From contig JAEUWC010000017.1 in NCBI GenBank assembly GCA_016786465.1, positions 62,001-126,000 of the forward strand: 64,000 bases of DNA. The letters run 5' to 3'. Position numbers and translations under genes: made by a program. Positions 50,716 through 58,641 of this stretch are shown here, piece by piece. Numbering within the stretch: position 1 is the stretch's first letter; the number at the start of each line of letters is the position of its first letter. Below the pieces are notes generated by a model. It did not search any database. It was not told the origin of the DNA and saw nothing but the letters and a program-made list of their open reading frames with translations. This stretch comes from Bdellovibrionales bacterium (lineage in GTDB: Bacteria; Bdellovibrionota; UBA1018).

Positions 50716-51801
50716 GTGAAACAGAACCTTCGCCCTATGCGTATCGCAGTCGTGGGAGCGACCGGCGCGGTTGGCAAGGAAATGTTGCCCATCTTAGAAG
50801 CGCGGGGTTTTCCGGTGGCGCAGCTGGTTCCTTTTGCATCGGCCCGGTCTGAAGGAAAGGTCGTCAGTTTCAGGGGGCATGCGATTCGCTGCCAAGTTTT
50901 GAAGCCGGGTTGCTTCCAAGGCATCGACATGGCTTTCTTTGATGCTTCAGACGCCATTTCTAAAGAATGGGCACTGAAGGCAGCCGAAGCAGGCGCATGG
51001 GTGATCGATAATTCAGCGACCTATCGCATGGATCCCGACGTTCCTCTTCTGGTTCCCGAGGTGAATGGATCGCTGCTGAAGAAACGAGTCGCCGAAGCGA
51101 AAAAACCGAAGAACAAGCTGGGTGCAAAAGTAAGAATCCTTGCTGGGCCAAATTGCACGACAGCCCAATTAGTCATGGTTTTAAAGCCCATCGATAAGTT
51201 GGCTTCGATCACACGAATCGTGGTTTCGACCTATCAAAGTGTCAGCGGCGCTGGTGCTGCTGCGATGGACGAATTGGCCGCGCAGACCGTGGGGATGTTT
51301 AATCAGAAAAAACCTCAACCTAAAGTCCTGGCCCACCAGATCGCGTTCAATTGCATTCCTCATATCGGAGGATTCAAGGAAGGCGGCTACACCAGCGAAG
51401 AAATTAAAGTAGCCCAAGAATCACGAAAAATTTTGGGGCTGCCCAAGTTGAAAGTCACTTGCACTGCCGTTCGCGTTCCGACCTTTTCCTGCCATGCCGA
51501 AAGCGTGAACATCCAAACCAAGAAAAAGTTCAAAATCGCCGCTGTTCGCAAAGCGCTTGCCGCATTCCCGGGAGTGATCGTTCAGGACGACCCTTCGAAG
51601 AATATTTATCCGATGAATCAGACTTCGGAAGGCGATCTTGTGGAATCGGCTACGGGACGCGATGCCGTTTACGTCGGACGTATTCGCGAAGACGATTCGG
51701 TCCCCAATGGAATGAATCTTTGGATCGTGTCGGACAATCTTCGCAAGGGCGCCGCTTTGAACGCAGTTCAGATTGGAGAGGCACTGCTTGAGCACTTGTA
51801 A
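50716..51801 (+). CDS. asd: aspartate-semialdehyde dehydrogenase
   Basis: Asd makes aspartate semialdehyde for lysine/diaminopimelate, threonine and methionine synthesis. The 361-residue protein has the NADP-binding VVGATGAVGKEMLPILEARGF, the active-site GPNCTTAQLV (Cys near residue 144), STYQSVSGAG, HIGGF and RVPTFSCHAESV with the catalytic His. The start is GTG 50716 right after the pssA stop, or ATG 50737. It overlaps the start of the exported CFI-box protein by 14 bases. Confidence 0.95.
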   Translation: MKQNLRPMRIAVVGATGAVGKEMLPILEARGFPVAQLVPFASARSEGKVVSFRGHAIRCQVLKPGCFQGIDMAFFDASDAISKEWALKAAEAGAWVIDNSATYRMDPDVPLLVPEVNGSLLKKRVAEAKKPKNKLGAKVRILAGPNCTTAQLVMVLKPIDKLASITRIVVSTYQSVSGAGAAAMDELAAQTVGMFNQKKPQPKVLAHQIAFNCIPHIGGFKEGGYTSEEIKVAQESRKILGLPKLKVTCTAVRVPTFSCHAESVNIQTKKKFKIAAVRKALAAFPGVIVQDDPSKNIYPMNQTSEGDLVESATGRDAVYVGRIREDDSVPNGMNLWIVSDNLRKGAALNAVQIGEALLEHL

Positions 51802-54232
51802 GGCTCTTTTCAGAGTTCTTGCAACGCTTACGCTTTCAACGCCGGCTTTTGCTCAGACCGTGACGTCGTACGGGGTTTCGCCCTATTCCATCGTCAATTA
51901 CGGGGGCACTGAATTCCTGAACTACGCCAACGACACTTTGGCGACCACTGTGGACACCGACGACGGTTTTTACTTGTTGGATATTTTAAACGGGCCCATC
52001 AGCAACGGAAGCACAGCCGCGGCAAACCACGGCCCAATGCAGTTTGATGTATTCGTATCCAGCCCTCCTTCCGGAAGTCGGGTCATCTTGATGGTCAAAG
52101 CCGGAAGCAAGTTCATTGGAATTGCCGCTGCCGGAATCGCCGGAACGACCTTAACCGACTGCGCGACGAATCGAACCACCGGGTATTGTCACAACGTTGC
52201 AGCCGGTTACGGCGCAAACCCAAACAATGCTGCGAAGGCAGCGATTTACACTTCAGGCCAAACGATTCGACTTCAGATTTACCCTGCCGACATCTGTGCA
52301 GCCAACAATGACAGCAGCTTGGACGCTTTCTGTACAGGCGTGCTGGTCAAGACACCGTCAGCGACCACTGCGCCCACGATTGCTTTGACCGTTCATGTGG
52401 CAGCCGTTGCTTCTGACACCACTGACCCTGCATCACTGACGTTGACCGGCGGTGACACCTTTAGTCTGAAGGTCATGACCGGTGGCCCTGGGGCGGTGAC
52501 CTGTGCAGCGACGCCAGGAAACACGGATTTCATTCAAGTCGGTGACGGCGTGGTCTTCCTGAACGTCGATGATGTGGACTATTCGTTGACCGCGACGGCG
52601 AACATCGCGCCCAATAAACTGATTTTTCTGGGCAATGTGGGTGGTCCACCATCCTTGGTTCCTCCGTTTTCTACGGGTGGGAACGAAATCATTACCAAAG
52701 TCGAATATACCGGAACTGGCGCAATGCAGATTGGGGGTTTCACGAACGGAACCGCCTATGACACCGACATCATGCTTCGGGACGCAGCTGGCGCATTGAC
52801 TGGAACTTCGACCACTTGTTCCTTAACAGGAGTACAGACGCAGACGATCGATGGGTTCTTGGCACAGGATCGATGTTTCATCGCGACGTCTGCTTTCGGT
52901 TCAAGGAATATTTGGCCCGTCAGGAATCTTCGAAAATTCAGGGATCAATGGTTGCTGAAAAGCGATTTTGGTCGAAGCATGGTTAGGGCCTATTACCGGC
53001 AGGGTTCCAAAGCTGCGGACTGGCTTGACCGGCATGCGGGCCTGAAACCCATGGTAGCCGCACTATTGGTGCCTGTTTGCGTAATGGCCTACATCCTGAC
53101 CCACCTTTGGGCGTCGGTCATTTTCTTTGGATTGATCGCTTTGAATTTTGTCGGTTTTCTAGTTCGGCGCCAATTCCTGAAGCAATTCGTAGCAAGCGCT
53201 TTGCTTTTTGGGATGCTTTCAGGATCGACCCAAGTTTTGGCGCAGGATTCGGTTTCCCCGCACATCGATCAAATCAAAGCCAAAAGTAAAATTTACCAAA
53301 GGGATGCCGAAGCCGAAGCAGAAGAACAAGCGAAAGGGACTTATACTCAGCGTGAAAAGGAAAAACTACTGAAAGAAAAGCCCCGCGACGGTTCGACTTT
53401 TGTTCCCGAAGGGTCGAGCTATACCGAAGGCCTGAAGTCGAAGATTCTGGAAAAGGAATCCGCTGATCCCAGCGAAGGCTACACGGATCGAATTAAAAAG
53501 CGCCTGATTGAAGAAGAAAAAGAACTGACCGAAGGCGGTGCCATTCAGAAAGTTCAAGACGGAAAGTCAGAATTGGAAATCAAGTACGCCGACCGCATTC
53601 GAAGCGCCATGATGTTTCGAGTCGGTGTAGCCATTGATCGAACCTTCACGGTCAGCAGCGGGGCTACGGCGGCGAATTTTTCGACCGTTTACGGATCGGG
53701 CTGGGCCCCGGATTTTCTGTTTAGCTATGAATGGCAACCGTACCACAGCGAGTGGTTTGGAAATATTGGTTTTGTTTTCGGCGGCGGTCTGGCTTTCTAC
53801 GACGGCAAAGGAAGATTCCAGAATCCGCCGCCTTCAATTCCGCCAGAACTAGGGGGCGGGTCTTACGATGCCGTTTCGTCCGTGAAGTTTCGTTTTTACA
53901 CCGTGCCTGTTTTTGCGGGATTGAATTACCGATTCAATCTTTTTCGCATCGTTCGTCCGTACGTCCAAGCAACACCGATGCTGCTGGGATATTGGGAAGG
54001 TCGAACGGATCGAACCAATGGCCAAAAGGGATTTTCTAAGGGCGCGATCCTTAGCGGCGGCATCGCGATTCCGATGAACTTTCTCAGCAGGAAAGAAGCA
54101 GGCGATCAGTACACTCAAAGTGGAATTCAACGCATGAGCCTGATGATCGACTTTTCAAAGCTTTTCACGATCGCTAGCGCCGTGAACTTTAACTATCAAG
54201 GAATCAGCATCGGCTTCTTGGCCGAAATGTAA
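51788..54232 (+). CDS. exported CFI-box protein with C-terminal beta-barrel
   Basis: The 814-residue protein starts with a signal peptide (MSTCKALFRVLATLTLSTPAFA). A beta-rich domain of unknown type follows (about residues 23-355). A CFI-box-like block CFIATSAFGSRN begins at Cys363 and runs through RNLRKFRDQWLL and VRAYYRQGSKAADWLDRH to two membrane segments (about 419-470). After a second signal-like cleavage site (VLAQD, about residue 486) a charged linker and a beta-barrel (about 600-814) follow. CFI-boxes usually end proteins, so this is odd. TTG 51788 has SD GGAGAGG; a TTG at 51773 is less likely. No function is known. Confidence 0.75.
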   Translation: MSTCKALFRVLATLTLSTPAFAQTVTSYGVSPYSIVNYGGTEFLNYANDTLATTVDTDDGFYLLDILNGPISNGSTAAANHGPMQFDVFVSSPPSGSRVILMVKAGSKFIGIAAAGIAGTTLTDCATNRTTGYCHNVAAGYGANPNNAAKAAIYTSGQTIRLQIYPADICAANNDSSLDAFCTGVLVKTPSATTAPTIALTVHVAAVASDTTDPASLTLTGGDTFSLKVMTGGPGAVTCAATPGNTDFIQVGDGVVFLNVDDVDYSLTATANIAPNKLIFLGNVGGPPSLVPPFSTGGNEIITKVEYTGTGAMQIGGFTNGTAYDTDIMLRDAAGALTGTSTTCSLTGVQTQTIDGFLAQDRCFIATSAFGSRNIWPVRNLRKFRDQWLLKSDFGRSMVRAYYRQGSKAADWLDRHAGLKPMVAALLVPVCVMAYILTHLWASVIFFGLIALNFVGFLVRRQFLKQFVASALLFGMLSGSTQVLAQDSVSPHIDQIKAKSKIYQRDAEAEAEEQAKGTYTQREKEKLLKEKPRDGSTFVPEGSSYTEGLKSKILEKESADPSEGYTDRIKKRLIEEEKELTEGGAIQKVQDGKSELEIKYADRIRSAMMFRVGVAIDRTFTVSSGATAANFSTVYGSGWAPDFLFSYEWQPYHSEWFGNIGFVFGGGLAFYDGKGRFQNPPPSIPPELGGGSYDAVSSVKFRFYTVPVFAGLNYRFNLFRIVRPYVQATPMLLGYWEGRTDRTNGQKGFSKGAILSGGIAIPMNFLSRKEAGDQYTQSGIQRMSLMIDFSKLFTIASAVNFNYQGISIGFLAEM

Positions 54233-54237
54233 CGGTC

Positions 54238-55056
54238 ATGTGGAAATACGCGGCACTGATCAATTACGTTGGAACCCAGTACACGGGTTGGCAGAAACAG
54301 AAAGGACAGGCGTCCCACGGTGGTCCTAGCATTCAGGAAATTCTGGACCTAGCACTTCGGCAGGTGACGTCGGAACCTGAAACCAAGACGGTGGGAAGCG
54401 GAAGAACCGACAGTGGCGTTCACGCCGCCGGGCAGGTTTGCCACTTTGTTTTGAAGCGCAAGGAATGGAAGACAGAAACTTTGAAGATGGGGATGAACAC
54501 GAATCTTCCGCCCGATATTCGGGTCGTTGCAGTTCGTCCCGTGGCAATTGAATTTCACGCTCAACACAAAGTCGAAAAAAAGCAATACAGCTATTACTTT
54601 CAGCAAGGCCCATGCGCGATTCCGTATCTAGAGCCCTACAGTTGGTGGATTCATAAGCCGCTGGATCTAAAGGCCATGCAAAAGGCCATGGACATCATAC
54701 AGGGCGAACACGATTTCTTGCCCTTTCAGGGGCGAAAGGCCAAGGCCGGGCCGACTGTTAGGACCCTTTTTGAAGCGGAAATCACTAGTGAACCCATCCA
54801 TTTTCCGGGTCAAACGATGACTACCCCTGAAATCCGTCTGGTCCGGGCGCGCCTGGTCGGCAGTGGATTCCTGAAACAGATGGTCCGTGGAATCGCGGGG
54901 ACCCTATTGCAGGTGGGCGAAGGACGGCGCCCCCCCGAGGATTTTGCCCATATTCTTAAGACCTTAGATCGGGGTCTGGTGGGGGCTACGGCACCCGCCA
55001 AGGCGCTTTGGATGGAGCGTATTTGGTACGACCCCAAGTGGGGCCTAAACTGGTGA
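54238..55056 (+). CDS. truA: tRNA pseudouridine synthase A
   Basis: TruA makes pseudouridine at positions 38-40 of tRNA anticodon arms. The 272-residue protein has GSGRTDSGVHAAGQV with the catalytic Asp near residue 60, YVGTQYTGWQ, the NTNLPPDI loop, FLPFQGRKAK and VGSGFLKQMVRGIAGTLLQVG. A start at ATG 54238 is five bases after the preceding gene. It is followed after 44 bases by tig. Confidence 0.95.
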   Translation: MWKYAALINYVGTQYTGWQKQKGQASHGGPSIQEILDLALRQVTSEPETKTVGSGRTDSGVHAAGQVCHFVLKRKEWKTETLKMGMNTNLPPDIRVVAVRPVAIEFHAQHKVEKKQYSYYFQQGPCAIPYLEPYSWWIHKPLDLKAMQKAMDIIQGEHDFLPFQGRKAKAGPTVRTLFEAEITSEPIHFPGQTMTTPEIRLVRARLVGSGFLKQMVRGIAGTLLQVGEGRRPPEDFAHILKTLDRGLVGATAPAKALWMERIWYDPKWGLNW

Positions 55057-56432: not shown

Positions 56433-57482
56433 TTAGGTCGTCTTTGTAATATCCAAACGGGGTCCCGCTAGCGGGATCCCGTTTTTTTCTAGCTTCTGAA
56501 TCGCATCTTGCAAAATCGAATTCGCGATTACCGTCTGTCGCCCAAAATCTTCAACAGCGTAAATCAGTTTGTAGGGTAGCCAAGATTCATGCGTGTCTGA
56601 AAGAAGCACAAAAGGCTTGGGATCTTGAAGGACTCCGGGTGCTGCCTGACAAGATTGGATCAAGGCGTCTCGAACCTTTGAATCGTTGGCCCCGTGAGGG
56701 ATCCGAAAGGTCAATGCACGAAGCGGCGGATTGGCTCCGACCGAATAGTTGGTGACTTCGCCTTGAGCGACCATGCGGTTTGGGATGCTCAGGATTTCAT
56801 CGCTCAGACCAACCAGCACGGTTGCTCGCCAGGAAATTTCTTCGACCCGGCCCACCCATTTTGTCGTGCCTTGACTGACTTCAATCCAATGACCGATTTC
56901 ATAGGGCTTATCCAACTGAAGGGCGATTCCGGCAAAAAGGTTTCCCAAGGTGTCTTGCAGTGCAAGACCCAGGATCAATGAAAAGATCGCCGACGTCGCC
57001 AAAAGCGGAGCCAGTCGAATGCTGAAGACGTCACTTAAGATCCAGCCACCGATCAGAATGGATAAAAGAAGCGAGGAAATATTAACCAATAGGACCGGTA
57101 CGCCGGTCTTCATGCTGCCGATGAAAAGGTATTCGAAAACCAGGATCCTGGCCGTGCGGACGAAAACGACTGCGCCCATGACGATGGTTGCAAAGCCCAC
57201 GTAGCCCGCAATTCTGGGTGCTGTGTCGGTGTCTTCGCCGCCCAGGCGGCGAATCGCCAGGTAGGTCAAGAAAAGCGTCGTCGCTAGGACCAGATAGCCC
57301 AGCAAATTGATGAATAGCCTTTTGATGTTGCGGTGGCGGTCTTCTGAAACGTTCCGCAAAAAAACCAGGTAGATCAGGAACGCGGTCACAGCAAGTCCCG
57401 CGATGGCCAATGCCGGTTCTAAATGAATCAGGCCATCAATCTTTTCGAGCGGAATCCACGGCGTCGGTCTTGGGTTCATCAA
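56433..57482 (-). CDS. MscS-family mechanosensitive channel
   Basis: MscS channels release solutes on hypo-osmotic shock. The 349-residue protein has four or five membrane segments followed by the MscS core: LALQDTLGNLFAGIALQLDKPYEIGHWIEV, RVEEISWRATVLVGLSDEILSIPNRMVAQGEVTNYS and a C-terminal alpha/beta domain. The pore helix Gly/Ala pattern lies near residue 185. It overlaps the outer-membrane gene upstream by 47 bases. Its last codons form the tig terminator. Confidence 0.9.
   Translation of the reverse strand: MMNPRPTPWIPLEKIDGLIHLEPALAIAGLAVTAFLIYLVFLRNVSEDRHRNIKRLFINLLGYLVLATTLFLTYLAIRRLGGEDTDTAPRIAGYVGFATIVMGAVVFVRTARILVFEYLFIGSMKTGVPVLLVNISSLLLSILIGGWILSDVFSIRLAPLLATSAIFSLILGLALQDTLGNLFAGIALQLDKPYEIGHWIEVSQGTTKWVGRVEEISWRATVLVGLSDEILSIPNRMVAQGEVTNYSVGANPPLRALTFRIPHGANDSKVRDALIQSCQAAPGVLQDPKPFVLLSDTHESWLPYKLIYAVEDFGRQTVIANSILQDAIQKLEKNGIPLAGPRLDITKTT
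56455..56488 (+). terminator. tig terminator inside mscS coding sequence
   Basis: AAACGGGGTCCCGC pairs with GCGGGATCCCGTTT around TA, and seven Ts follow. It stops tig transcripts 30 bases after its stop codon. The same bases encode the end of MscS (KNGIPLAGPRLDI) on the other strand. Confidence 0.85.
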
Positions 57483-58641
57483 TATTCTGCTTTTCTAGTT
57501 TGCTCATCGAAACTCGGAAGCCCACGGCTCCGTGAATCAAGGTCAGGGAATTTCCTTGGGTGGGGTTGCTAAAGGAAGCGTACGAAAGTTCATAAAAAAT
57601 GAACCAAGGCCGGTTTCCTTCGGCAGCAAAAAGGCTGGTTTCGTAACGTGCGCGAACATCGATGCCGTTTCCTAAATACGCAAACCGAATTCCCATCGCT
57701 TTATAATTGGAATTGATTTCTTTGGAAGCGCCCCCAAATACCAATTGCGGACCAAAAACGGACGAAACTCCGTACGCTGAATTCGGCACCAGCATTCCCC
57801 AAAGAAGTGGGCCCAGTCCGATTCGCCAATCCAGGTTCATCCACTTCAGTTTTTCCAGCGCGTAGCTTCCTTGAACGCCTACCCCATAGTAGCGAGCCAA
57901 GGGTAGGTTGCTAGCCGACGAAGAAAACGGAAGTGCCGTAAAGCGGAAAGATCCGATCAGTCGCCATTTTGGGTGAACGGGCATCATGTAGTCACCGACC
58001 AACGCCAATCCGAACTGGGTCGTCGAAATATCAAACGGTTGTTCCGAATAGTTCGCAAAGTCGAATGCTGCGCCCAAATTCAAACCAGGCTTCGACGAAC
58101 TTCCCAGTTCAGCGTCTTCGACTTTGACCCTCATCATGAAGGAAACTTCTGATTTTCCCTTTTCACGAAAAAGGCCGATCGGATCCCCACTGACGCCAAC
58201 GACGCTTGCGCCCTGATTCAATCTTCGCGCGGGATCCAGCGATTTAACGCCCCTGGGTACTTTTTCGGGGACTAGCGGAGAATCAGGAGCCGGAAACCAT
58301 TCGAACTGCTTAGGCATCCAGAAGTACAGATTCACTTTTCGGTTCTTGCCCGTTCCGCTGACCTTGCCGTCATACGGCCAATCGTTCGGAACGGGTTTAC
58401 CAGTCGGATCAAAAAATTCGATAAAGACGCGAGACGGCTTCGGCACGACTTCGCTGCTGTCAGTTGAAAGACCTTCAGGAACTGCTGGTGATGGTTCTGA
58501 AGTGGGCGACGGCGATGCTGATGGACTAGCGATGGGCGACGGAGTGGGCGACGCTTCGGGGGTCGACGCCGGATCTTGGGCCCATGCGAAAGTTGAAAGT
58601 GAGTAGACTGCGCCTGCTAGTGTGATGAAACGAATCGGCAT
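57436..58641 (-). CDS. outer-membrane protein with Pro/Ser-rich N-terminus
   Basis: The 401-residue protein has a signal peptide (MPIRFITLAGAVYSLSTFAWA), a Pro/Ser/Ala-rich segment (about residues 23-60), then beta-strand-rich sequence of a barrel type (residues 145-400) with a non-barrel insertion containing VFIEFFDPTGKPVPNDW. The C-terminus is polar (SARKD) rather than aromatic. No family is recognised. It overlaps mscS, so both are probably co-expressed. Confidence 0.65.
   Translation of the reverse strand: MPIRFITLAGAVYSLSTFAWAQDPASTPEASPTPSPIASPSASPSPTSEPSPAVPEGLSTDSSEVVPKPSRVFIEFFDPTGKPVPNDWPYDGKVSGTGKNRKVNLYFWMPKQFEWFPAPDSPLVPEKVPRGVKSLDPARRLNQGASVVGVSGDPIGLFREKGKSEVSFMMRVKVEDAELGSSSKPGLNLGAAFDFANYSEQPFDISTTQFGLALVGDYMMPVHPKWRLIGSFRFTALPFSSSASNLPLARYYGVGVQGSYALEKLKWMNLDWRIGLGPLLWGMLVPNSAYGVSSVFGPQLVFGGASKEINSNYKAMGIRFAYLGNGIDVRARYETSLFAAEGNRPWFIFYELSYASFSNPTQGNSLTLIHGAVGFRVSMSKLEKQNIDEPKTDAVDSARKD

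Follow-up and report, generated by a model that had tools for sequence, protein, structure and literature searches.

The window (the whole analysed stretch of 64,000 nucleotides from a Bdellovibrionales bacterium, contig JAEUWC010000017.1) contains an open reading frame (ORF) of 814 amino acids (51788–54232) that, by comparison with relatives, consists of two adjacent genes fused in frame; many relatives keep them apart. The fused ORF is best read as a polyprotein that would be cut by the ordinary signal peptidase I between residues 485 and 486, yielding the two products that the split genes encode (probability about 0.72). Coordinates are on the forward strand unless stated otherwise. The ORF has a TTG start with ggagagg upstream, and its 5' end overlaps the end of the asd gene by 14 nt. 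By ORF and synteny, asd (aspartate-semialdehyde dehydrogenase, 50716–51801) and truA (54238–55056) are its conserved upstream and downstream neighbours.

The comparison sample consisted of about 90 Bdellovibrionota genomes and was MAG-based. The conserved neighbourhood in the fetched loci was rseP-tsaB-(eamA)-pssA-asd-[CFI protein]-[barrel]-truA-tig, and the open frames found in relatives by searching for the barrel family fell into two size classes (approximately 710–860 and 320–430 amino acids). The two halves were found as one ORF in 33 of the 79 classified genomes, and as separate adjacent genes in the other 46. An earlier note on this DNA had divided the protein into two functional parts, processed near residue 486, and had suggested a comparison with homologues that carry these parts as split genes. 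The 46 genomes with two overlapping genes support that division, and with it the predicted site. The fusion point was at the same place in all one-ORF genomes compared. All fused ORFs contained the CFI-box (33/33), and the barrel fused without it, which had been named as the counter-case, was found in none of the 33. Both arrangements occurred across the order and the phylum, and six of the fused genomes were outside the order of the window genome. In nine genomes of more distant families, the barrel was present at the locus without an adjacent CFI gene, and some of these families carried CFI-box genes elsewhere. One genome (G044), initially assigned as fused by ORF length, was actually split, its open frame being due to high GC.

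The reading frames of the split genes differed in 44 of 44 pairs, and the barrel start lay over the CFI stop, with a median overlap of 4 nt, also the most frequent value. The barrel starts in these pairs, which were assigned partly by SD match, had SD matches of 3–7 nt. From this arrangement, the split CFI and barrel genes look translationally coupled. Since they usually overlap by 4 nt and lie in different frames, a net frame shift near the junction suffices for fusion. Other operon pairs also overlap, yet none was a single ORF (pssA/asd, 0/52; truA/tig, 0/50; rseP/tsaB, 0/22); likewise, asd was never fused to the CFI gene (0/58), nor the barrel to truA (0/81).

The recurrence of the fusion was assessed on a species tree of four genes (Asd, TruA, PssA, and Tig), some branches of which are weak. 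The fused and split states needed 14 changes, with FastTree and IQ-TREE alike; well-supported branches forced 11–12 (FastTree) or 9 (IQ-TREE) of them. The gene tree of the N-terminal part needed 12 changes and that of the barrel 15, with six forced in each. Because the gene trees also need many changes, one fused gene transferred between lineages fails to explain the pattern, and HGT of this kind was ruled out. The trees indicate that the CFI and barrel genes merged about a dozen times.

The N-terminal half starts with a signal peptide (residues 1–22, 51788–51853) that is recognised in the sequence and ends in STPAFA/QTV (the slash marks the cut here and below); relatives have a similar leader. 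The exported part that follows (approximately residues 23–351, 51854–52840) consists of Ig/FnIII-like domains according to AF2, Foldseek, and a profile match. In the AF2 model of this half, built from the relatives' alignment (mean pLDDT 85), the Ig/FnIII-like part was followed by the helical CFI-box and two long hydrophobic helices. The N-terminal domains matched FnIII/Ig tandems in Foldseek, and FnIII of chitinase A1 and titin in profile comparison. The N-terminal half can thus be described more precisely as an exported Ig/FnIII-like protein. A Pfam search of the 814-residue protein gave nothing notable. In an alignment of 75 homologues, Cys182 of the N-terminal domain and Cys363 of the CFI-box were invariant and Cys170 was nearly so; a disulfide or metal role of these residues is possible.

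The CFI-box (residues 363–430, 52874–53077) matched NCBIfam NF041770 with 69.6 bits (E 1.5e-19) over positions 1–68 of 69, which is the full domain. The score is well over the curated cut-off of 40 bits, so the match is not due to chance, and the earlier placement of the box in the middle of the protein, at residue 363 of 814, was correct. The window protein thus has the same full-length domain as the CFI-box-CTERM proteins, but the C-terminal position expected for these is seen only in the split homologues; the box of the window protein is internal because of the fusion.

The earlier note took the CFI-box for a sorting or processing signal, with a cut near residue 360 that releases a surface domain and a second cut at 486. 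The NCBIfam name does specify a CTERM domain, and the C-terminus of the split homologues resembles sorting signals in having a motif, membrane helices, and a basic tail. The box, however, is a long conserved helical domain and not a short motif, as seen in the alignment and the AF2 model, and the split CFI protein keeps its C-terminal helix. The combination of motif, membrane helix, and basic tail, as in rhombosortase- or archaeosortase-like signals, is also broken up: the box is retained without the second helix and basic tail both in clade b (described below) and in a paralogue, CFI2, of the window's own genome. CFI2 (235 amino acids; contig C16, L057:4029–4736, reverse strand) has neither a signal peptide nor a membrane helix. 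Cleavage at the CFI-box is therefore very improbable.

The CFI2 gene adjoins priA and lepB, the gene of signal peptidase I, and this position of lepB had suggested that the CFI-box and signal peptidase I are linked. The idea was dropped because, in the two further genomes examined (L131 and L138), priA was again beside the second CFI-box gene and lepB was absent from the fetched flanks. The outgroup family f15 (L145, L147, L148, L149, and L150) had exported proteins that carry a CFI-like box at the C-terminus and a membrane helix and are encoded at other loci with no adjacent barrel. The profile of the window N-domain did not match the N-terminal parts of these proteins, and N-part homology with them is consequently not claimed. 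A literature search found no paper on the CFI-box or on Bd0484–Bd0486, only a mention of Bd0487.

The barrel half comprises a helical linker (residues 486–605, 53243–53602; AF2) and an 8-stranded outer membrane barrel of the OmpA/OmpX type (residues 606–814, 53603–54229; NF053801, AF2, and Foldseek). In the AF2 model made from the relatives' alignment, the barrel had eight strands and a mean pLDDT of 84 (>90 in most barrel strands), its closure being read from the model. Foldseek matches were OmpA, OmpX, Ail, NspA, and OmpW. The window barrel shares strand number and these matches with OmpA/OmpX/Ail-type barrels, but sequence identity to them is only about 10%, and it has the long N-terminal helical linker with Y-T/I-D/E-x-x-K repeats. 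These repeats, in units of approximately 20–30 residues with helices, were present in the window's order and absent from the other families of the phylum examined. The C-terminal domain also matched NF053801, the 'Bd0486 family outer membrane beta-barrel' (77.9 bits, E 8e-22), a score far below the curated cut-off of 370, and by this comparison the window barrel is a homologous but distant relative of the Bd0486 family. The Bd0486 family barrel has the same syntenic position, with the asd/CFI gene before it and truA after it. One genus, presumably Bdellovibrio, scores above the cut-off, and its sampled genomes encode the barrel separately from the CFI gene; the window version is fused to the upstream gene.

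Between the two halves, hydrophobic/amphipathic helix 1 (residues 417–438, 53036–53101; AF2 and alignment) overlaps the end of the CFI-box profile. It is followed by membrane helix 2 with a basic patch ending in VRRQF (residues 440–463, 53105–53176; AF2), the counterpart of the anchor at the C-terminus of the split homologues; the second hydrophobic helix spans residues 440–466 in the AF2 model. The segment after the basic patch (residues 464–485, 53177–53242; sequence and alignment) resembles a signal peptide and reads LKQFVASALLFGMLSGSTQVLA followed by QD, with the candidate site VLA/QD at 485/486. It has the n-, h-, and c-regions and the (−3,−1) site of an embedded signal peptide, as in FbcH-like polyproteins. 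The two membrane segments, the VLAQD site, and the barrel-like domain had all been pointed out before, and AF2, NF053801, and Foldseek agree with this order. Two other parts of the earlier proposal were not supported. The split CFI proteins have at their end a membrane helix and, behind it, a tail with a mean net charge of +2.9; their C-terminus is thus probably cytoplasmic, which speaks against the 'surface' location given to the N-terminal half. 'Self-processing' is not needed either, as an ordinary signal peptidase I suffices and is encoded in the window's genome (PF10502).

From these features, we infer the following topology, cleavage, and final locations. The first half would be exported by the N-terminal signal peptide, and the second membrane helix would cross from the periplasm to the cytoplasm, anchoring it. 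The basic patch would remain cytoplasmic, and the embedded signal peptide would re-enter the membrane. Signal peptidase I would cut after VLA (485/486), freeing the barrel into the periplasm for assembly in the outer membrane and leaving the FnIII/CFI protein in the inner membrane.

The features of the embedded signal peptide were conserved among the fused proteins. The anchor, the basic patch, and the complete internal signal peptide were all kept in 19 of the 33 (class a), including the window protein; in these 19, the 20 residues around the n-region contained 1–6 K/R and no D/E, and the hydrophobic core was kept. With cleavage sites read by hand in all 33 fused proteins, the −1 residue was A in 29, S in 3, and G in 1, and the −3 residue was A in 15, S in 10, L in 4, V in 2, T in 1, and I in 1, while −2 was any of 13 residues. 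In an all-fused clade of five (G062, G130, and the MAGs L151–L153), the signal peptide sequence had diverged (L151–L153 are 42–52% identical to G062), and the pattern was retained: basic patch, core, and L[KR]A before the cut were present in all five. A crude weight-matrix score supported most, not all, of the candidate sites; the site of G112 was poor and the n-region of G126 weak. Shuffling of the sites, scored with a self-trained matrix, gave individually weak p-values, since alanine-rich stretches reach good scores even in shuffled form, and this test was replaced by the column and control comparisons.

Alternatively, the fused protein might stay uncut as a single chain, with its FnIII/CFI half inserted in or located at the inner membrane, the helical linker across the periplasm, and the barrel in the outer membrane, forming a covalent envelope tether; in clade b, FnIII/CFI would be tethered directly to the barrel. 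Such a chain could account for the frequency of the fusion and its retention in old clades, for the linker of about 120 residues between the site and the barrel, and for the fact that clade b lost the second helix together with the signal core, which leaves a single exported chain. The (−3,−1) pattern, however, is kept in practically all fused proteins while −2 is free, which is hard to explain without cleavage, and many sister lineages manage without a covalent link. An uncut chain is for these reasons regarded as unlikely.

A separate synthesis of the barrel from an internal start codon, in which case the fused product would matter little, was also considered. A few fused genomes (G035, G007, and G019) do have an in-frame ATG, GTG, or TTG with SD-like matches of 4–5 nt before the signal core. 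The n-region of the window protein, however, contains no ATG, GTG, or TTG and no preceding SD-like sequence, several other fused genomes have none either, and the split pairs, by contrast, show SD matches, their starts having been chosen partly by SD. Such a start has very little probability. The codon at the expected start in the window, which is the first of the internal signal peptide (53177), is CTG followed by A, and may be a remnant of the (A/G)TGA through which stop and start overlap by 4 nt in the split genes.

Clade b comprises twelve members of family f5 that lost the second helix and the signal core and kept the whole CFI-box. Losing both together removes a pair of membrane crossings, so that export of the barrel is unaffected. 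In these proteins, CFI-box helix 1 leads straight into the small-x-small site and the linker of the mature barrel. In eight ungapped, equally spaced sequences, −3 and −1 were A or S in 8/8, −2 was G, S, D, H, or N, and +1 was E, D, or Q. The preceding helix carries conserved P, E, and K/R, and would make a poor signal core. G040 (L036) lost the second helix and the signal core independently; it kept an AKA/E site and has a longer stretch between CFI-box helix 1 and the small-x-small site. The junction of G010 (L054) was intermediate, with the second helix present and the signal core gone. With the N-terminal half exported, a site directly behind one membrane-spanning helix would, in the simplest topology, face the wrong side in clade b; either the helix must then be interfacial, or another mode of cleavage operates. 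Our guess for this clade is that an interfacial helix is cut. It is also conceivable, at rather low odds, that cutting of the fused protein is incomplete in certain lineages, most of all in clade b, leaving the FnIII/CFI domains covalently linked to the outer membrane barrel. The lineages would then form a graded series, with two free proteins at one end, a cleaved polyprotein in between, and a tethered protein at the other end, and the (−3,−1) site would set the amount tethered.

The proposed polyprotein has a known counterpart in the cytochrome bc1 of Bradyrhizobium, in which FbcH contains cytochrome b and c1 in one gene and is cut at an internal signal sequence; our literature search found no paper on FbcH-type polyproteins. 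In both cases, one gene would give two envelope proteins that are encoded separately in relatives and are separated by signal peptidase at an embedded signal peptide. The proteins themselves are different, one half of the window protein is predicted to reach the outer membrane, and in a single phylum its fusion has arisen many times, always at one junction. This recurrence at a single junction and the predicted outer membrane destination of one half are new. The locus may be regarded as a replicated natural experiment, the same two envelope genes having been fused about a dozen times in a phylum that includes predatory bacteria, while the other operon pairs tested never were. The fusion is likely tolerated because the embedded signal peptide lets signal peptidase undo it. 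As a general prediction, fusion to a downstream signal-peptide gene should be tolerated by genes whose product has a C-in membrane anchor at its end. For annotation, a 'CTERM' domain in the middle of a protein can mean a fused downstream gene and not a new processing system. The conservation of the pair points to a two-protein envelope module in the relatives of Bdellovibrio.

A further ORF of the window (57436–58641, reverse strand, 401 amino acids), just past an MscS-like gene, has a putative signal peptide and a Pro/Ser-rich stretch followed by barrel-like sequence.
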